Source: Candidatus Doudnabacteria bacterium
GTDB taxonomy: Bacteria > Patescibacteriota > Doudnabacteria > UBA920
Length of the DNA: 38,623 bases
Direction of reading: 5' to 3'
Assembly (NCBI GenBank): GCA_016788665.1
Contig: JAEUSF010000009.1
Span: forward strand, 1-38,623
The notes under the pieces were generated by a model. That model was not told the DNA's origin. It saw nothing but the letters and a program-made list of their open reading frames with translations, and did no database searches. The position numbers were made by a program, and so were the translations under genes. This document shows positions 8,014-37,895 of this stretch, piece after piece. Within the stretch, counting starts at the first letter, position 1, and each line of letters opens with the position of its first letter.

Positions 8014-9294
8014 TTATGGGATTATGAAGCCTCTGATGGTCTTGCTGCTGTGAGAAATAAACCTGGTATTTACTTTGCCAAATTTTTCATAATTCATTTC
8101 ACTGACTGTAAAACCTTTTTCGTTTACCGAATGAACGAGAGCTACGTGGCCGTATCGGGAATTATCGGTAGTTACTACAATACTGCCTGGAATTGCTTCG
8201 TTAGTAATTGTATAGCCCATGGCTCTGGCGTTGGAAAGCCAGTTTTTTGCATTACCGCCCCAGGGTACATGAACTTTGCTTGCCACATACCATGTGCAGT
8301 AGCCTTTGGGGAAGATGTGGCCTGTGCCGTTGCCTAAATTAGGTATAGAAGAGCCTTGTGGCTTAACTTTGCCGTCAGTGGATGGTTTTGGAGCGGGCTT
8401 TTGAACTGGTGCTGCTATTGTTCCGCCCGGTACTATAAATATATCTCCGGGGTTTATATCTTCGGCATTTTCAAGTCCGTTATAAGCAATTATTTTTTCT
8501 ACGGTAACTTTGTATTTTTTTGCAATATCTGGAAGAGTGTCGTTGTTGGAGGCTTTATGGATTACACCATTTGTTGGAGGAATAATTAAAAACCAACCAG
8601 GCTTAATGGTCGTGCTGGTTAGTTTGTTTGCCCACATAAGGGTGTCAATATTGAGGCCATTTTGGGAAGCAATGGATTTTAACGAATCACCAGACTGTGT
8701 CTGGTAGACTTTTATTTGTTTGGCCAAAAGTTCGGCTACGCTGTCGGGATTTGGCTGGACAATAGTATCATTGTTAAAAACTAAGTTTGCAGTTGCATCT
8801 TCGCTATAAGTGTTTTCGGGAGAAACGCTAAAATATTCTTCGGCCTGAGCATGGGGTACTATAGAATTTTGTGACAATACTACTGTATTTATGACCGACA
8901 TCTTTGCGTATAACTTAGGGTTAATGTCGGGATTTTTAACAACTAGCCTGCCGGCATGGCTAAGGTCTGAATAGGTGTCTTTTTGGTGAAAAAAATAAAC
9001 ATTCCACAAGGCAACCATGCCTGCCATGACAAGCAGGACCAGTTCAGATGAGAATTTTAAAGCTAAATCAAGACGACTAAAGTCTTTTAGTCTTACATTA
9101 GGAAACGCATTCAAATGAAACTTTTTCAGGTCGGGTAAGCTCCGGCGCCACAAAAACAAAACAAGCCCCCTTAGATACTTAATGCTGAAAATAATCTTGT
9201 TGTAGCCTGAGGCAATTTTTAATTGCCACTTTTGTATAGTTTGCAATGTATTTGTATCTGTTTGCTTGAATATAGAAGAAAGAGCCCCAAGCAA
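8014..9294 (-). CDS. LysM-CHAP cell-wall amidase/endopeptidase
   Basis: A 426-residue peptidoglycan-binding hydrolase. A membrane helix at about 90-112 (LVLLVMAGMVALW) anchors it. Two LysM domains follow (about 193-238, KVYQTQSGDSLKSIASQNG; about 246-292, ASNNDTLPDIAKKYKVTVEK), then a C-terminal CHAP domain from about 330 with the catalytic Cys in GYCTWYV (about 333) and His in RYGHVALV (about 383). CHAP enzymes cut peptide bonds in peptidoglycan. The N-terminal 90 residues before the helix are basic and unrecognised. No ATG lies upstream: the reading frame begins with a TTG at 9294 after a stop, so the start is uncertain. A role in wall remodelling during division or host contact is inferred. 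Confidence 0.85.
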   Translation of the reverse strand: MLGALSSIFKQTDTNTLQTIQKWQLKIASGYNKIIFSIKYLRGLVLFLWRRSLPDLKKFHLNAFPNVRLKDFSRLDLALKFSSELVLLVMAGMVALWNVYFFHQKDTYSDLSHAGRLVVKNPDINPKLYAKMSVINTVVLSQNSIVPHAQAEEYFSVSPENTYSEDATANLVFNNDTIVQPNPDSVAELLAKQIKVYQTQSGDSLKSIASQNGLNIDTLMWANKLTSTTIKPGWFLIIPPTNGVIHKASNNDTLPDIAKKYKVTVEKIIAYNGLENAEDINPGDIFIVPGGTIAAPVQKPAPKPSTDGKVKPQGSSIPNLGNGTGHIFPKGYCTWYVASKVHVPWGGNAKNWLSNARAMGYTITNEAIPGSIVVTTDNSRYGHVALVHSVNEKGFTVSEMNYEKFGKVNTRFISHSSKTIRGFIIP

Positions 9295-11736: not shown

Positions 11737-12651
11737 ATGACATCGGAAAAAGAAAAAATAATTCAATTGCTAAAAAAGTACAACCTTAGTCCGAACTTTA
11801 CGTATGGGCAGAATTTTTTAACAGACGAGTCTGTTCTGGAAGAGATGGTAGAGGTGGCTGGTGTAAATAAGAAGGATACAGTTTTAGAGATTGGGCCGGG
11901 GATAGGGAACCTTACCCGCATGCTGTGCGAAAAAGCTGGTTATGTATTAAGCGTAGAAAAAGATCCAAAATTTTTTCCAATCTTAAGGTCAGTAAAAAAA
12001 GATTACAAAGAAAATTTTCGTTTCGAAGTAGCCGACATTTTGGAATTTAATTTTAGTAAAGAAATACAAACCCGATCCCAATCTACAGATAAAAATCCGA
12101 ATCTGCATATATCCGCAAATTCGGAAAGTATTCGCAAAGTCGGACCGGTTAATTATAAGGTTGTCGCAAACATACCTTACTACATAACTGGAAAAATTTT
12201 ACAATTATTTTTGACAGCTCCTAACAGGCCTGACTCCATAACAGTACTCACACAAAAAGAGGTGGCTGAGAATGTGGTGGCCGAAGTGGGGGACCTGGGG
12301 GTACTGGGAATTTCGGTTCAGCTTTTTGGCAAACCTCGAGTTGTTAAAATTGTTTCAAAAAAAAGTTTTTTTCCGAGTCCTAAAGTCGACAGTGCAGTTT
12401 TGCACATTGAACTTTTTAAAAAACCTATTTACAAAATTGCTGACCAGAGAAAGTTTTTTAAAGTTGTAAAAGCTTGCTTTGCCGGAAAAAGAAAACAGCT
12501 TCATAATACTTTGGTTAACAATTTACGTTTGGAAAAAAGCGAAGCTTTAAAAATTCTTGAAGAGCTAAAAATTAGTCCGAGCGTAAGGCCGCAAGAACTT
12601 AGCATAGAAAGTTGGGTTAAGTTAGTAGACAAAATTTCAGTGCTAATTTAA
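11737..12651 (+). CDS. rsmA: 16S rRNA (adenine1518/1519-N6)-dimethyltransferase RsmA/KsgA
   Basis: Dimethylates two adjacent adenines in helix 45 of 16S rRNA, a late check in small-subunit assembly. The 304 residues show the Rossmann SAM-binding motif LEIGPGIGNLT at about 50-60, the acidic motif VEKDPKF, and the catalytic NIPYYIT at about 145-151; a KSFFPSPKVDSAV block and a helical C-terminus follow. Residues about 108-138 are an insertion between the VADILEF motif and NYKVVANIPYY, where family members have only a few residues. It contains an imperfect palindrome (12096-12125) and appears to be element-derived. The 110-nt upstream gap holds no strong promoter. A perfect terminator follows the stop. 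Confidence 0.93.
   Translation: MTSEKEKIIQLLKKYNLSPNFTYGQNFLTDESVLEEMVEVAGVNKKDTVLEIGPGIGNLTRMLCEKAGYVLSVEKDPKFFPILRSVKKDYKENFRFEVADILEFNFSKEIQTRSQSTDKNPNLHISANSESIRKVGPVNYKVVANIPYYITGKILQLFLTAPNRPDSITVLTQKEVAENVVAEVGDLGVLGISVQLFGKPRVVKIVSKKSFFPSPKVDSAVLHIELFKKPIYKIADQRKFFKVVKACFAGKRKQLHNTLVNNLRLEKSEALKILEELKISPSVRPQELSIESWVKLVDKISVLI
12096..12125. repeat. Palindromic insert inside rsmA
   Basis: TCCGAATCTGC and GCAAATTCGGA pair over 11 bp with one mismatch around an 8-nt loop. It lies in frame in a segment absent from ordinary KsgA. Its ATCTGC...ATCCGC core resembles, with a 2-nt insertion, the inverted repeats around the GxxExxY gene (ATCTGCGTATCCGCG), so the two families may be related. 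Confidence 0.55.
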
Positions 12652-12690
12652 AAAACTCTAGCAGTAAATTTTACTGCTAGAGTTTTTTTA
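12651..12690. terminator. Bidirectional terminator, rsmA / DUF192 gene
   Basis: ACTCTAGCAGTAAA and its exact inverted copy TTTACTGCTAGAGT meet without a loop spacer, flanked by A and T runs. It lies between convergent genes ending at 12651 and 12696. Confidence 0.9.
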
Positions 12691-12695
12691 TTTTT

Positions 12696-16218: not shown

Positions 16219-16258
16219 ATACAGAGGACGGCCCTCTATAGAGGGCCGTCCTCTGTAT
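16219..16258. repeat. Perfect 40-bp palindrome, GC-rich
   Basis: Two exactly complementary 20-nt arms with no spacer (left arm starts ATACAGAGGACGGCC, centre CTCTA/TAGAG). It follows the terminator directly and precedes the next promoter. Its GC content is far above the surrounding sequence and it carries no coding signal. Confidence 0.85.
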
Positions 16259-21030: not shown

Positions 21031-22206
21031 ATGAACTTTCAGTTAATCGAAAAATTAAGAAAGCTGGTAGAAGATTCTTCTATTTTAAGCTTGTCAGAAA
21101 AGCATGAGTGGATGTCGCTCTTGGAACTCATGAATGACAAGCAGCTTTTGGAATTGGAAAGGATATTGGTAACCAATACTTTGCAGGTTGCAGCAAATGT
21201 TGTGGGGGCGCCTGTGGTAAGGTCGCAAGAAAATTTTCCAAAAGTAGCGTTAATGCAAAAATCACAGCCGGAAAAAATAGTAGCGCCTGCTCCTAAGTTT
21301 TCTATGCCTGCAGCTATTTTGGCGGCAAAAGAAAAAAAAGATGTGCAGCCAAGCCGTTCAAAAATTTCCTTAGGTCATATAATAAATTTGCCAAAAATTG
21401 AAAATGCAAAAAAAAGCATTCTAAACAATACTTTGGCAAAGCCAGAGCCTGAATTGCTTAAGAAAAGTGGTTTTTTAAGCAAACTTAAGGCTATGGTGAG
21501 GCAGCCGGAATTACCGCCAGGACATGTTTTGCCTGAGCTTGAAATTACAGAAAAATCTTCTTTTAAAGAACAAGCGGTGCAAATAGAAAAAGCGCCATTG
21601 GTTTTAAAAGAAAAAGTTCTGCCGCCCGTTAAACCACTGCCGGTTCCAGTACCTGCGGCTCCTGTAAAAAAACCACAACCTCAGGAAGCCAGACTTGAGT
21701 CTGTAAAATCTAAAGAAAATAAAGCTCCTGCCTTGGTACCTAGAAATGGCATAAAAGATTGGCCGTCTCACTACGATCTCCGTTCACGAAATTTAAACGT
21801 TAGTAGTGGACCGGTTTTGCCGGTTAAGAAGGTTTTGTTACCGAATGAGCATGTGAATCTTTCTGTTCCTAAAGTAACAGGTGCTTTAGGTACGGAAAAT
21901 GTAAAGAAAGTTTCATTGTCCCCGTCCGAAATTAAAAGGCCGGAAGATTTACAGGGACTTGGTGCAGATGCTCTTAACACTGACATACAAGCCAAGCTAA
22001 AGGAAATGGTGCGGCATGTGGGATATTTTCAAGTCGTGCCATATTTAGAAAAAAGCCCTTTGTATTTAAACTATCTTGCTACTGGTAAGCAGATTTTAGA
22101 AAAGAATGTAAGTTTTGAAACATTAAGCCGGGAAAACTCAAATTTCTTAAACCATGAACAATTTGAAAAAACCGCCGATCTCTTGCGTATAATACAAGCG
22201 GAGTAA
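21031..22206 (+). CDS. Cytosolic Pro-rich protein of the T4SS-like locus, unknown family
   Basis: Unrecognised 391-residue protein with no export signal. A helical N-terminus (residues 1-55, leucine-rich: LSEKHEWMSLLELMNDKQLLEL) is followed by about 250 residues of disordered Pro/Lys/Val-rich sequence (VLPPVKPLPVPVPAAPVKK), and by a small helical C-terminal domain from about 305 (KLKEMVRHVGYFQVVPYLEK). A central WPSHYDLRSRNL segment may be a short binding motif. It looks like a flexible tether. A four-helix-bundle cassette lies between it and prgI, starting directly at its stop codon. Confidence 0.6.
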   Translation: MNFQLIEKLRKLVEDSSILSLSEKHEWMSLLELMNDKQLLELERILVTNTLQVAANVVGAPVVRSQENFPKVALMQKSQPEKIVAPAPKFSMPAAILAAKEKKDVQPSRSKISLGHIINLPKIENAKKSILNNTLAKPEPELLKKSGFLSKLKAMVRQPELPPGHVLPELEITEKSSFKEQAVQIEKAPLVLKEKVLPPVKPLPVPVPAAPVKKPQPQEARLESVKSKENKAPALVPRNGIKDWPSHYDLRSRNLNVSSGPVLPVKKVLLPNEHVNLSVPKVTGALGTENVKKVSLSPSEIKRPEDLQGLGADALNTDIQAKLKEMVRHVGYFQVVPYLEKSPLYLNYLATGKQILEKNVSFETLSRENSNFLNHEQFEKTADLLRIIQAE

Positions 22207-22652
22207 TTTGAAATTCCCAATTTCAAATTCCAAATATCAAATTAATTTCCAATGACAAGCTCAAAAAAATTTGATTTAGAGGAAAGAACGGCTGTTTTTG
22301 CTGAAGTTGTTGTGGAGTTTGTAAAATCTATACCACAGAATCCAATTACGGTTTCTATTATTAACCAGTTAGTTAAGTCTGAAACATCAGTTGGGGCGAA
22401 TTACTGCGAAGCTGATTCTGCAGAATCAAGAAGAGATTTTGAACATAAAATGGGTATATGCAAGAAAGAGGCTAAAGAAACCCGTTATTGGTTAAGGGTA
22501 ATGGCCAAGGCGGTACCGGAGTCAAAAGAAAGAGGGAGGATGATCTGGCGAGAAGCTAACGAATTATTGTTGATTTTTTCGACAATTATTAGGAATTCTA
22601 AGAAGAAAATTGTAGAATAGTTGTTTTGAAATTTGTTATTTGTAATTTGTTA
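22207..22652. mobile_element. Four-helix-bundle cassette bounded by inverted arrays of 7-nt units
   Basis: Left array 22207-22241, in phase: TTTGAAA, TTCCCAA, TTTCAAA, TTCCAAA, TATCAAA. Right array 22625-22652: TTTGAAA, TTTGTTA, TTTGTAA, TTTGTTA, the inverted form. A 19-nt core of the left (22224-22242) matches the reverse complement of 22631-22649 at 17 positions. The left array starts immediately after the upstream TAA stop. There is one gene inside and no transposase. Mobility is inferred from the bounded structure and dispersal of the unit. Confidence 0.55.
22252..22620 (+). CDS. Four-helix-bundle protein (23S rRNA intervening-sequence family)
   Basis: A 122-residue all-helical protein with the family's pattern: FDLEERTAVFAEVVVEFVKSIP, ITVSIINQLVKSETSVGANYCEAD, a KMGICKKEAKETRYWL stretch and an ANELLLIFSTIIRNSKKK end. 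The family (TIGR02436/PF05635 type) was first found in intervening sequences of 23S rRNA genes, and free copies are scattered through Patescibacteria and Bacteroidetes. Its biochemical role is unknown; the fold forms pentamers with a basic surface in a solved member, as known for the family. Here it is unrelated to its T4SS neighbours and sits inside inverted 7-nt repeat arrays, so I regard it as cargo of a small insertion. Confidence 0.85.
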   Translation: MTSSKKFDLEERTAVFAEVVVEFVKSIPQNPITVSIINQLVKSETSVGANYCEADSAESRRDFEHKMGICKKEAKETRYWLRVMAKAVPESKERGRMIWREANELLLIFSTIIRNSKKKIVE

Positions 22653-22670
22653 TTACGATTATGTTATAAT
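22640..22670 (+). promoter_or_regulatory. Promoter giving leaderless prgI mRNA
   Basis: TATAAT at 22665-22670 with TG at 22662-22663 (TGTTATAAT, identical to the uvrD promoter core); a loose TTGTAA at 22640-22645 is 19 nt upstream. The ATG at 22677 begins 6 nt after the -10 box, so initiation falls at the start codon. The promoter lies at the right end of the four-helix-bundle cassette and would keep the downstream genes expressed. Confidence 0.65.
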
Positions 22671-22676
22671 TAAACT

Positions 22677-23123
22677 ATGCAATTTCCCGTCCCACAATTT
22701 ACTGAAGTAGAAGACAGGATAATTGGCCCTTTAACAGTTAAACAGTTTGGAATACTGTTCGGTGCCGGTACTTTTGTTTTTTTAACGTATTCTGTTGCTG
22801 GCAAAAGTTTAACCGTTTTAATTGTCATGGGCCTTTTGGTAGGCTTGCCTGCTTTAGGTTTGGCCTTTGCCCAGTTTAACGGCAGGCCGGTATATAACGC
22901 TTTTGGCAAAATTTTTCAGTTTATTACTTCGCCTAAAGTAATGGTCTTTCATAAAGAGATATATACCGTAAACTCGCAAAGTAAACTAAAAGATATAGAT
23001 GTGGGTGTAAAACAAGTTATACAGGCAGAGATTCAAAACCCGCAGTTAAGAATAAAAGAAGTTAGAGAACTGCTTGAAAAACAGGCTAGTGAGGAGAAAG
23101 AGTTGGTGGGAAAGATAAGGTAG
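22677..23123 (+). CDS. PrgI-family inner-membrane protein of a T4SS-like machine
   Basis: 148 residues. The N-terminus QFPVPQFTEVEDRIIGPLTVKQF is the PrgI-family signature, followed by two close membrane helices at about 27-60 (FGAGTFVFLTYSV, VLIVMGLLVGLPALGLAF) and a FNGRPVYNAF turn; the C-terminal half is charged and helical. PrgI proteins are VirB3-like subunits that sit beside VirB4 in conjugation systems of Gram-positive bacteria and in Patescibacteria. The family identity supports the T4SS reading of the whole locus. It is probably leaderless. Its TAG stop overlaps the left inverted repeat of the GxxExxY cassette. Confidence 0.85.
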   Translation: MQFPVPQFTEVEDRIIGPLTVKQFGILFGAGTFVFLTYSVAGKSLTVLIVMGLLVGLPALGLAFAQFNGRPVYNAFGKIFQFITSPKVMVFHKEIYTVNSQSKLKDIDVGVKQVIQAEIQNPQLRIKEVRELLEKQASEEKELVGKIR

Positions 23124-23603
23124 TTCGCGGATACGCAGATGAAAAACGATAAAAATCAGATTTGCTTCAATTAAGACATGTTTGAACATTGTTAAGTTAT
23201 AAGTATGAAACTTTTGTATGAAGATCTGAGCGCGAAAATTATTGGTGCAATGTTTAAAGTATATAACGAGTTAGGGTATGGATATCAGGAAAAGGAGTAT
23301 GGAAATGGATTAGCTGAGGAATTTAAGATAGTAGGATTAAGTTATAAACGTGAGCTTTGTGCGCAGTTGTATTATGCCGAAAAACTAATCAGAAGATACT
23401 TTTTGGATTTTTTGGTCGAAGACAAGGTGGTGGTTGAATTAAAAGTCGCGAATCAGATTTATAAGCAGCACTTTACTCAGGTTATTCAATATCTGCAGAA
23501 AAATAATATTAAACTGGGTTTAATATTGGCCATAACCCCCTCTGGAGTTTTGGTTAAAAGAGTTATTAATGAAAGATCGGTATGATCTGCGTATCCGCGA
23601 GCT
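23122..23603. mobile_element. GxxExxY cassette with near-perfect terminal inverted repeats
   Basis: AGTTCGCGGATACGCAGAT at 23122-23140 and its inverted copy at 23585-23603 match at 18 of 19 positions. They bracket a single gene. The left repeat begins within the prgI stop codon, the cargo's own TGA stop (23583-23585) touches the right repeat, and the next gene starts 3 nt after the right repeat. An identical left repeat recurs at 24286. No transposase is present, so any movement would need a helper in trans. Confidence 0.65.
23205..23585 (+). CDS. GxxExxY protein (PD-(D/E)XK-like fold)
   Basis: 126 residues with the family hallmark: KIIGAMFKVYNELGYGYQEKEY (about residues 11-32, containing the G-x-x-E-x-x-Y motif), then FLVEDKVVVELKVANQI, in which the Asp/Glu/Lys spacing resembles the D...ExK core of PD-(D/E)XK nucleases, and a LNYLQ-type end (IQYLQKNNIKLGLIL). 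The family (TIGR04256, PF13366 type) is widespread in environmental bacteria; a function has not been shown. It lies between inverted repeats inside the T4SS-like operon and has no evident link to its neighbours. Being the repeat-encoded enzyme is possible but speculative. Confidence 0.88.
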   Translation: MKLLYEDLSAKIIGAMFKVYNELGYGYQEKEYGNGLAEEFKIVGLSYKRELCAQLYYAEKLIRRYFLDFLVEDKVVVELKVANQIYKQHFTQVIQYLQKNNIKLGLILAITPSGVLVKRVINERSV

Positions 23604-23606
23604 AAA

Positions 23607-24287
23607 ATGTTTGAAATGCAAAATAAAAATCAAAAAGGCATAAAAAGCACTCAAAGCTTTTTAAAGCTTTCGGAAATAAAAAACAACTGTGTTGTTATGA
23701 ATGACGGAAGTTTGAGGGCTGTTTTAGCTGTGTCTTCCACAAATTTTGATTTAAAAAGCCAAGAAGAACAGAATTCCATAATTTTTAGTTATCAGAGGTT
23801 TTTAAATTCGTTGGAGTTTCCTATTCAAATTTTAATGCAAAGCAGGCGAATGGAGGTTGGGGGGTATATAGAAAAGTTAAAGAAAATAGCTGAAAAACAG
23901 ACAAACGAGCTTTTAAGAGTCCAAACAATGGAGTATATAGATTTTATTAGCAGACTTATAGAAAATGCAAGTATAATGAATAAAAATTTCTATATTGTTG
24001 TGCCTTTGGGTGAAAGTATTTTTCCTGCTGCCGCTGGTTTTTTCAGTACAATTTTTGGGAATGGGAAAGCTAAGGAAACCGGTGAGAGGATTGCGAATTT
24101 TGAAAAGGCAGCTGAAAAGTTGGCTTTGCGTGTAAATGCAGTTATGGCTAATTTAAACGGCGCTGGGGTGCGGGCTGAACGTTTAAGTACAGAGCAGATT
24201 ATGCAGTTGTATTATAATTCTTATAATTTTGAAGCTGGTCCACTTATTAACTTCGGCCAATTAAAAGATATTAAAATAGTAGAATAG
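23607..24287 (+). CDS. TraC-like domain protein of the T4SS-like locus
   Basis: 226 residues, soluble. The N-terminal half (LKLSEIKNNCVVMNDGSLRA, SLEFPIQILMQSRR) is the TraC-like/VirB4 N-terminal type fold found as a separate small protein in many Patescibacteria T4SS-like loci. Residues about 130-155 include a hydrophobic stretch (FYIVVPLGESIFPAAAGFF), and the end (GVRAERLSTEQIMQLYYNSYN) resembles the corresponding part of VirB4-type proteins. No Walker motifs are present. It probably pairs with the full VirB4 ATPase downstream. It is wedged between the GxxExxY cassette and a geneless sister element. Confidence 0.75.
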   Translation: MFEMQNKNQKGIKSTQSFLKLSEIKNNCVVMNDGSLRAVLAVSSTNFDLKSQEEQNSIIFSYQRFLNSLEFPIQILMQSRRMEVGGYIEKLKKIAEKQTNELLRVQTMEYIDFISRLIENASIMNKNFYIVVPLGESIFPAAAGFFSTIFGNGKAKETGERIANFEKAAEKLALRVNAVMANLNGAGVRAERLSTEQIMQLYYNSYNFEAGPLINFGQLKDIKIVE

Positions 24288-24382
24288 TTCGCGGATACGC
24301 AGATATAGCAGATAGCACAGGTTATAAAGTTTTATGCAATAAAATCTGTAATATCATCGCAGTGTCCGTGTATCAGCGAAAT
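24286..24382. mobile_element. Geneless sister of the GxxExxY cassette (MITE-like)
   Basis: Begins with AGTTCGCGGATACGCAGAT, identical over all 19 nt to the left repeat at 23122, and again overlaps a TAG stop codon in the same register. The far end (24353-24382), read on the minus strand, contains TTCGCTGATAC, matching 10 of 11 with TTCGCGGATAC. The core of about 50 nt has no ORF. It fills the gap between the TraC-like gene and virB4. Confidence 0.6.
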
Positions 24383-24386
24383 AAAT

Positions 24387-26234
24387 ATGTCACTTTTTTC
24401 CCCAAAAACTGAAGCTGAAATCGAAGCAAAAAAAGAGCGCTTAAAAGAGCTCGAAAATGAAAAGGACGCTGGCAAGCGCCTGGTTGATGTTGAAAAGACT
24501 TATAGGGAAGGCTTGACCACTTTAAAGGACTTGTTAGCTCCGGCTTCCTTAAAGTTTGAAGGTTCTCACTTTGAACTTAATGGAAGGTTTGGAAGAAGTT
24601 TTTTTGTACTTGCCTACCCCAGGTTTTTGTCTAGTAACTGGCTGTCTTTTATTATCCAATCTGAGGGCGCTTTGGATGTTTCAATGTTTGTCTACCCTAT
24701 TGATTCTGAAACTATTTTAAAGAAGCTTAAAAGCAAGGTAGGAGAAATTGGTTCCCAAATGTCCATTAACCAGGAAAAAGGCCAAGTTAGGGACCCGATG
24801 CTGGAAACAGCATATCAAGATGTAGAGGGTTTGCGCGATCAGCTTATGCAAGGCACTGAAAAATATTTTAGGTTTGCTTTGTATTTTACAATTTATGCCG
24901 ACGACTTAAAAGAGCTTGACCGAAATTCTTCGACTTTGGAGTCTTCTTTAGGTGCCAAGCTTATTGTTACTAAGCGAGCTGTAATGCAGACTCAGGACGG
25001 CTATAATTCTACGCTTCCTTTGGGGAGCGACATGCTGGATGTTGGTAACAATTTAAACACGAGCCCTCTTTCGACCACGTTTCCTTTTGTGTCTTCTGAC
25101 CTACCCCCACACGACGGTATATTGTACGGCATTAACCGCCATAATAACAGTCTTATACTTTTTGACCGTTTTCAGATGGAAAATGCAAATAGCGTAATTT
25201 TTGCTAAGTCTGGTGCTGGTAAATCTTATGCTGTTAAGTTGGAAATTTTGCGTTCTCTTATGATAGGTACCGAGGTTATTGTTATTGACCCGGAAAACGA
25301 GTATCAGCATTTGGCGCAGGCGGTTGGCGGTACATATTTAAACGTCTCACTGAATTCTGACTCGAGAATTAACCCGTTCGATTTGCCGGTGGGGCTGGAG
25401 GGCGAGGACCCTAAAGATATTTTAAGATCGGCCATTATAAATTTGCTTGGCTTGTTTAGTTTGGCGCTCGGGAAGCTTAATCCTACCGAAGAAGCAATAA
25501 TGGACAAGGCAATTTGGCAAACATATGCAAAGAAAGATATAACAGAAAACTTGTCAGATTTTAGAAGTGCCGAAATGCCAACCATGAACGACCTTATAGA
25601 AATTTTGTCTGGTATGGTGGGGGCAGAAAGCTTGGCACAAAGACTGACAAAATATACCGAAGGAACTTTTGCAGGGCTTTTTAACCAGCCTACCAATGTG
25701 GTGTTAAATAACCAACTGGTTATATTTTCTATACGTGATTTGGAGGAAGAGCTTCGCCCAATAGCCATGTATATAATTTTAAATTATATTTGGAATATGG
25801 TCAGGGCGGAGTTGAAGAAGAGGATTTTGGCTGTTGACGAAGCCTGGATTCTAATGCAGCACGAAGACAGCGCAAGGTTTTTATTTGGCATTGCCAAGCG
25901 TGCTAGAAAGTACTATTTAGGCCTTACAACTATAACTCAGGATGTGGCGGACTTTTTGGCTTCGCCGTACGGTAAGCCTATTGTGACTAATTCATCCATA
26001 CAAATGCTTTTAAAGCAGTCTCCCGCTGCTATAAATATAATTGCCGAGACTTTCTTTTTGACCGAAGGGGAAAAATATTTGTTGCTTGAAAGCGAAGTGG
26101 GAGAAGGTATATTTTTTGCAGGCCTAAAGCATGCGGCAATAAAAATATACGCTTCGTATGTCGAGGACCAGATTATAACCACAGACCCAAAACAACTTTT
26201 AGAGATACAAGAAAGCCAGGAAAAACTAAATTAA
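24387..26234 (+). CDS. virB4: VirB4-type conjugation ATPase
   Basis: The motor ATPase of the T4SS-like machine, 615 residues. The N-terminus has the VirB4 lead LLAPASLKFEGSHFEL and FFVLAYPRFLSSNWLS; the Walker A motif AKSGAGKSYA is at about 273, an IDPENEYQHLA block follows at about 300, Walker B is ILAVDEAWILMQ at about 479, and TTITQDVADFL follows at about 514 (motif of HerA/FtsK-type ATPases). VirB4 energises substrate transfer or pilus assembly at the inner membrane; it docks with VirB6-like and PrgI-like proteins, both encoded upstream. No Shine-Dalgarno is visible before the ATG at 24387. All catalytic residues are intact, so the machine appears functional. Confidence 0.9.
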   Translation: MSLFSPKTEAEIEAKKERLKELENEKDAGKRLVDVEKTYREGLTTLKDLLAPASLKFEGSHFELNGRFGRSFFVLAYPRFLSSNWLSFIIQSEGALDVSMFVYPIDSETILKKLKSKVGEIGSQMSINQEKGQVRDPMLETAYQDVEGLRDQLMQGTEKYFRFALYFTIYADDLKELDRNSSTLESSLGAKLIVTKRAVMQTQDGYNSTLPLGSDMLDVGNNLNTSPLSTTFPFVSSDLPPHDGILYGINRHNNSLILFDRFQMENANSVIFAKSGAGKSYAVKLEILRSLMIGTEVIVIDPENEYQHLAQAVGGTYLNVSLNSDSRINPFDLPVGLEGEDPKDILRSAIINLLGLFSLALGKLNPTEEAIMDKAIWQTYAKKDITENLSDFRSAEMPTMNDLIEILSGMVGAESLAQRLTKYTEGTFAGLFNQPTNVVLNNQLVIFSIRDLEEELRPIAMYIILNYIWNMVRAELKKRILAVDEAWILMQHEDSARFLFGIAKRARKYYLGLTTITQDVADFLASPYGKPIVTNSSIQMLLKQSPAAINIIAETFFLTEGEKYLLLESEVGEGIFFAGLKHAAIKIYASYVEDQIITTDPKQLLEIQESQEKLN

Positions 26235-26235
26235 A

Positions 26236-26411
26236 TTTCAAATTTCAAATTCAAAATATCAAATGCTTTATTGCAAATATCAGGTTTGTTAGCATTAGGC
26301 TGGGCAATGGATTTTAGTTTTGAAAGTTAGCTTGCGTACTTTTTGCAATTATTTTGAAAAAGGTTTGTAATGTACTGTGCAGATTTGATATTTGATATTT
26401 GATATTTGATA
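26236..26411. repeat. Inverted arrays of 7-nt units around a geneless core
   Basis: Left array 26236-26263: TTTCAAA, TTTCAAA, TTCAAAA, TATCAAA. Right array 26384-26411: four exact TTTGATA units. The arrays are inverted relative to each other with a core of about 120 nt that has no ORF. This is the same unit family and the same geometry as around the four-helix-bundle gene (22207-22652), minus cargo. The left array starts 1 nt after the virB4 stop; the right one ends 9 nt before the next ATG. Confidence 0.7.
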
Positions 26412-26420
26412 TTTTATCGT

Positions 26421-37855: not shown

Positions 37856-37895
37856 ACAAACAAATACACCACTTTTAAGTGGTGTATTTGTTTGT
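37856..37895 (-). terminator. Terminator downstream of tRNA-Ser(GCU)
   Basis: Two 19-nt arms, ACAAACAAATACACCACTT and its exact inverse, with a 2-nt centre. On the minus strand the stem is followed by TTTC and its own lower part is T-rich. It touches the CCA end of the tRNA. Confidence 0.8.

Follow-up and report, generated by a model that had tools for sequence, protein, structure and literature searches.

The window (the whole 38,623-nt stretch of DNA that was analysed) carries a gene for a GxxExxY protein between the T4SS genes prgI and virB4 (Table 1). The gene is bracketed by inverted repeat I1, whose arms are complementary at 19/20 positions over the full repeat and at 18/19 over the shorter span given in the initial annotation. 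As described there, the repeat starts inside the prgI stop codon, the left arm opening with that TAG (23121-23123), and ends 3 nt before the next ATG (23603 and 23607, respectively). The resulting element is ~484 nt long and would be compatible with a TA target duplication.

The window holds 3 copies of the 16-nt core of I1 (0.12 expected), a number that no shuffle reached, and the whole genome has 11 matches to the I1 pattern at ≤2 mismatches and 0 matches to a reversed control pattern. A third copy of the left end, absent from the initial annotation, was found at 24285-24304, identical to the left arm (direct repeat D1, 20/20), at the start of a cargo-less relative. Also missing from that annotation was a sister-type element just upstream of prgI, with heptamer-type inverted arms around a four-helix-bundle gene. 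Several of the GxxExxY copies in the window's own genome are broken. As separate observations, virB4 is split (window 23607-26234) into an N-terminal part of 226 aa and an ATPase part of 615 aa, likewise in the relatives read, and perfect or near-perfect terminator-like hairpins of 19-24 bp lie between genes at 12645-12693, 16219-16258 and 37856-37895. Splitting of virB4 by the cargo-less copy at 24285 was considered and rejected, since relatives already have virB4 as two genes.

Table 1. Positions of the elements and neighbouring genes in the window.
Feature	Position	Strand	Description
Sister-type element	22197-22655	+	four-helix-bundle (23S rRNA IVP family) gene 22252-22620; PF05635/TIGR02436
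prgI (T4SS)	22677-23123	+	upstream neighbour of GxxExxY gene; PrgI PF12666 E=2.2e-9
Left arm, GxxExxY element	23121-23140	+	inverted repeat I1, TAGTTCGCGGATACGCAGAT; units TTCGCGGAT-ACGCAGAT
GxxExxY protein gene	23205-23585	+	126 aa; TIGR04256 E=1.3e-27, PF13366 E=3.3e-27
Right arm, GxxExxY element	23585-23604	-	inverted repeat I1, ATCTGCGTATCCGCGAGCTA
virB4 N-terminal part	23607-24287	+	downstream neighbour; NCBIfam VirB4-type matches; orthologues in L055-L083
Cargo-less relative	24285-24381	.	~97 nt, virB4N/virB4C junction; right end degenerate, about 24358-24381
Cargo-less inverted-repeat element	26233-26415	.	ATTTGAT heptamers, directly after virB4C; RNA fold z=-2.6

The encoded protein scored 96.4 bits against TIGR04256 (cut-off 35) and 95.6 bits against PF13366 (cut-off 22). 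The PD-(D/E)XK core that the initial annotation had attributed to the family is intact in alignment A1 (E29, D68 and E78-x-K80, i.e. E...D...ExK); all 44 sequences aligned have G24, E29 and K80, and Y32, D68 and E78 are kept in ≥90%. An AF2 model (pLDDT 95.5) was closest in fold to Cas4 SSO0001 (E=2e-5) and to lambda-type/phage-type exonucleases, and a sequence search returned no solved GxxExxY structure. No HUH tyrosine transposase (Y1, IS200/IS605-like) was found using Pfam, NCBIfam and fold comparison, PD-(D/E)XK being the only enzyme type detected. With dN/dS of 0.088 at an ilv site and of 0.05-0.24 when six orthologous copies from a leu junction of Emticicia were compared, the cargo is, by this measure, under purifying selection.

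Occurrence and insertion sites of GxxExxY elements

For comparison across genomes, loci were pooled from 34 loci of several phyla, 30 of Patescibacteria (including the window's own), 25 from eight genomes, the own-genome loci and the PrgI loci, giving 76 distinct testable GxxExxY genes, and flanking inverted-repeat scores were judged against 1728 decoy placements. Scores above 95% of decoys were obtained at 62/76 loci and above 99% at 53/76; only 5/87 control ORFs of the pooled loci passed the 99% limit (Fisher p=8e-19), and in a later set of 11 Emticicia genomes inverted arms scoring at least 16 were present at 11/11 GxxExxY loci. The proposed link between repeats and GxxExxY genes across genomes was thus borne out, and the repeats are paired around the gene at most loci. 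AT-rich genomes readily yield short arms (decoy mean score 11.5), and an ordinary gene might be flanked by an inverted repeat through chance, but this explanation is excluded by the copy-number, decoy and control-ORF tests, the 11/11 Emticicia loci and the unit spacing described below, is refuted by the loci found in other phyla, and is considered extremely improbable.

The elements, mostly 450-700 nt elsewhere, have outer ends that lie mostly ~10-20 nt or less from the neighbouring stop and start, as at ilvN/ilvC (L039) and cysD/cysN (L032, judged by reading flanks). Among 64 loci with arms, 47 genes share the direction of both neighbours and 5 run antisense to both (p=1e-9), and the neighbours differ from place to place. 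GxxExxY genes were found in 21/145 Patescibacteria genomes at 1-7 copies each; 4 plasmid matches were obtained, and a phage search gave no match. On these sequence data, GxxExxY looks like the cargo of a widespread small mobile element, present across several bacterial phyla.

PrgI was found in 80/98 relatives, and 30 loci were read (the window's own and 29 from relatives). In about half of the relatives read, the distance from prgI to virB4N is -17 to 47 nt, so the empty sites sought by the initial annotation exist and its claim that the element sits exactly between otherwise adjacent T4SS genes stands; the virB4N/virB4C junction is likewise 1-30 nt in many relatives. At these two junctions, GxxExxY inserts were found in L056, L063 and L082 (truncated in L059), HMM-confirmed four-helix-bundle inserts in L062, L064, L069, L076, L079, L081 and L082, and ~100-nt inverted repeats without cargo in L055 and L060, the inserts usually starting at the stop codon and stopping just short of the start of the following gene.

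Of the Emticicia genomes compared, G184 and G192 carry an insert between ilvN and ilvC, and the ten others have an empty junction of 45-106 nt; comparison of empty and filled sites gave no clear target-site duplication and no exact insertion point, the empty site differing by ~20 nt. At the leu junction (L248-L263, 11 species), one GxxExxY element occupies six species, another GxxExxY with CACAAT units one species, and a four-helix-bundle element with CACAAAG/CACAGAG units two species, while G194 has a 79-nt remnant, an apparent internal deletion of the latter that would represent the birth of a cargo-less element. Since several insertions persist vertically (leu junction, six species), present mobility is something that we infer. 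At a separate post-stop intergenic site, three different inverted-repeat elements (GATT-type, TGAGTGA-heptamer type) were observed in three Emticicia species (L168 about 8510-8680, L199, L197), marking it as a hot site.

An in-frame GxxExxY element was also found within the GTPase domain of LepA (EF4) in two genera (L088, L089; G030:C4, G026:C6), inserted between ITIKLQPVRM and YxLNLIDTPGH with the lepA frame kept open and the arm units translated (KTQTNADKTQTDAD). Insertion may therefore also take place outside junctions, the observed distribution then reflecting sorting by selection. The same insertion bears on whether GxxExxY is a domesticated host gene, for example of defence or DNA repair, with regulatory repeats around it by chance. 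Such a role would fit the low dN/dS, the retention of the gene by six Emticicia species at the leu junction and a weak padloc match to PDC-M36A (E=7e-4), but we consider it improbable given the patchy presence in Patescibacteria, the broken copies, the varying neighbours and the insertion in lepA.

Arms built from a 7-bp unit

The initial annotation had proposed testing many GxxExxY loci for the same ends. The inverted architecture is conserved, but the exact 19-mer is not and was rejected as a conserved end, conservation being limited to the architecture and to degenerate arrays of a 7-bp unit. The unit common to GxxExxY arms is YRCNRAK, repeated every 8-10 bp: 261 successive pairs are spaced at 8-10 nt against 32 in shuffled arms, and 376 units point inward against 103 in the opposite direction. 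Some arms use words outside this consensus (CACAAT, CGCAGAA). In left-right arm alignments, which were picked for similarity and on whose arms the unit itself was defined, mismatches are rare at the unit positions C, R, A and K (2-9%) and frequent at N (44%) and in the spacer on the 3' side of the unit (35-38%).

In most elements the units share one flavour (TACGAAT, CGCAGAT or CACAGAG), and flavours follow protein clade. When 29 labelled elements were placed on a 44-protein tree, 5 flavour changes were needed against 8-16 in 300 shuffles (0/300), T/G at the last unit position required one change on the same tree, and clades within one genome carry different flavours in G189 and G184. Arm k-mer similarity also tracks GxxExxY protein similarity (Mantel r=0.365, 0/2000). 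This co-variation supports recognition of the arms by the GxxExxY protein, although part of it will reflect inheritance, since arms and gene are physically linked.

Pairing of the arms was also considered at the RNA level. In a process like that of 23S rRNA intervening sequences (IVS), the arms would pair in the operon mRNA and RNase III would excise the insert, leaving the flanking genes unaffected. Compatible with this are the almost invariable sense orientation within operons, the 20-bp stem closed by the window element (z=-3.8), and the four-helix-bundle proteins, which are the IVS family and whose arms show a weak sign of RNA-stem conservation (35 G-U-compatible transitions against 18, p=0.027). 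Transitions in GxxExxY arms, however, were flat (112 G-U-keeping and 115 G-U-breaking, p=0.89), leaving an RNA-stem model of these arms unsupported, and agreement lies at the unit core and not in the spacers; spread and unit flavour would also go unexplained. We regard excision at the RNA level as distinctly improbable. Because the cores agree, the spacers differ and there is no G-U excess, the arms look like recognised sites and not like an RNA stem, and we read selection as acting on recognised units in inverted order and not on a transcript hairpin.

Cargo-less copies, a second cargo family and a candidate mechanism

Although paired around GxxExxY genes, the arms also often occur without one. 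Sequence matches in G184, G192 and G198 numbered 54, 59 and 38, most of them arm sequences (the 54 in G184 accompany only 2 GxxExxY genes), and those examined in Emticicia were mostly cargo-less hairpins of ~90-170 nt. Cargo-less copies with matching arms therefore number in the tens, far above the gene count.

The initial description of GxxExxY as cargo holds in that the gene lies inside an inverted-repeat element, but the junctions can carry unrelated four-helix-bundle cargo instead. In these elements arm similarity follows protein similarity too (Mantel r=0.329, 0/2000), and they share junctions and similar arms with GxxExxY elements, in Emticicia also the unit class; arms can thus exist without GxxExxY. 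In Patescibacteria, four-helix-bundle (TIGR02436, IVP) genes (L207-L236) were observed in sense orientation at operon junctions, bounded by inverted arrays of ~7-nt units (18/28 above 95% of decoys).

This second cargo family in the same niche makes a passenger role the strongest rival: some unrelated enzyme, of the host or of a transposon, would move the MITE- or REP-like arms, with both genes as alternative cargo picked up between them. Two unrelated families with shared junctions, architecture and (in Emticicia) unit class point that way, as does the great excess of cargo-less copies over genes. Against it, unit flavour goes with the GxxExxY clade both between host phyla and inside single genomes, and the catalytic core of the cargo is complete, with strong purifying selection on the gene. 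We consider a passenger role rather unlikely.

We lean slightly towards a compact, REPtron-like mobile element in which a minimal PD-(D/E)XK nuclease recognises its own inverted unit arrays and drives movement. That the protein moves or protects its own element had been put forward speculatively in the initial annotation. The GxxExxY nuclease, probably as an oligomer, would bind the unit arrays at both ends and nick or cut at the arms or at the target, and host repair would then copy the element into a new place. The same protein might move cargo-less copies in trans, as RAYT is thought to move REPs. Selection would remove most insertions, leaving as survivors those in sense orientation at operon stop/start junctions, which would split no gene and be expressed from the host promoter.

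Comparison with known systems

A REPtron consists of a RAYT (TnpA-REP) tyrosine transposase gene between two inverted REP/BIME repeats; cargo-less copies are scattered between genes in far higher number, and the type of repeat is associated with the enzyme (PMC2817692, PMC8266576). By analogy, the GxxExxY element would work most like a REPtron, as an enzyme gene lies between two inverted repeats that recur gene-free elsewhere in the genome. It differs in having arms of 7-bp unit arrays in place of GTAG-headed palindromes and in its sense orientation inside operons, and it falls outside the REPtrons because its enzyme is PD-(D/E)XK and not HUH.

Rpn (YhgA-like, PF04754) nucleases have the PD-(D/E)XK fold and are not known to have short-unit arrays. 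Pfam and NCBIfam scans gave no PF04754/Rpn match. They are described as recombination-promoting nucleases linked to DNA mobility (PMC5350276), and so resemble GxxExxY as a mobility-linked nuclease family without a DDE, HUH or serine transposase.

The 23S rRNA IVS with an IVP/S23 ORF is also an insert of ~430-480 nt with one small ORF and complementary termini (a 28-bp stem in Coxiella; PMC4990558), and its four-helix-bundle family occupies the same junctions here. The present elements, unlike it, are not in rRNA (no rRNA was found in the window, where the element sits between prgI and virB4), their GxxExxY protein is unrelated, and their arms are conserved as units and not as an RNA stem. CPR rRNA introns carry the homing endonuclease I-ShaI (PMC11270868), likewise a small nuclease gene as insert cargo in Patescibacteria; those are LAGLIDADG and self-splicing, whereas GxxExxY elements are without an intron and mostly intergenic. 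DDE transposons and MITEs have terminal inverted repeats together with a target-site duplication of fixed length; here, inverted arms are present, and the empty and filled ilvN-ilvC sites showed no clear duplication.

Intergenic heptamer repeats (TAACTGA sets) of Beggiatoaceae, cyanobacteria and Bacteroidetes have short tandem units that end 1 nt before start codons and are described as direct repeats that may serve in regulation (PMC4679880). The right arms here are also short tandem units just before start codons, with inverted partners and cargo genes that set them apart from the repeats as described there. The start-codon repeats may be right arms of such elements.

More broadly, and tentatively, since we hold it to be possible but somewhat short of even, GxxExxY and four-helix-bundle elements could each form a branch of one new class of mobile DNA that resides in operons, with ends that are inverted short-word arrays read by the cargo protein and, in one branch, a Cas4-like nuclease as sole mobility enzyme. 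On this reading, cargo-less remnants would account for many start-codon tandem repeats in Bacteroidota, Patescibacteria, cyanobacteria and Beggiatoaceae. Puzzling intergenic short repeats, 'MITEs' and four-helix-bundle ORFs would then join in one picture, and movement driven by a Cas4-like nuclease of 126 aa, with no transposase, would be a new mode of DNA spread. The GxxExxY gene, whose function is unknown, is common in Bacteroidota and uncultured phyla; its clade-specific ends suggest a testable role as an array-binding nuclease, and the unit arrays lend themselves to direct specificity-swap experiments. A search of the open-access literature (subscription papers lying outside it) gave no description of GxxExxY elements and no use of the name PDDEXK_3; GxxExxY itself is named there, including, by title, in algal virus genome work.

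A minor observation concerns the boundary of the cargo gene: in L097 (1480-2610), the GxxExxY ORF runs through the right arm into the downstream gene, producing a 376-aa fusion with a partner that bears an N-terminal methylation (pilin-like) motif.
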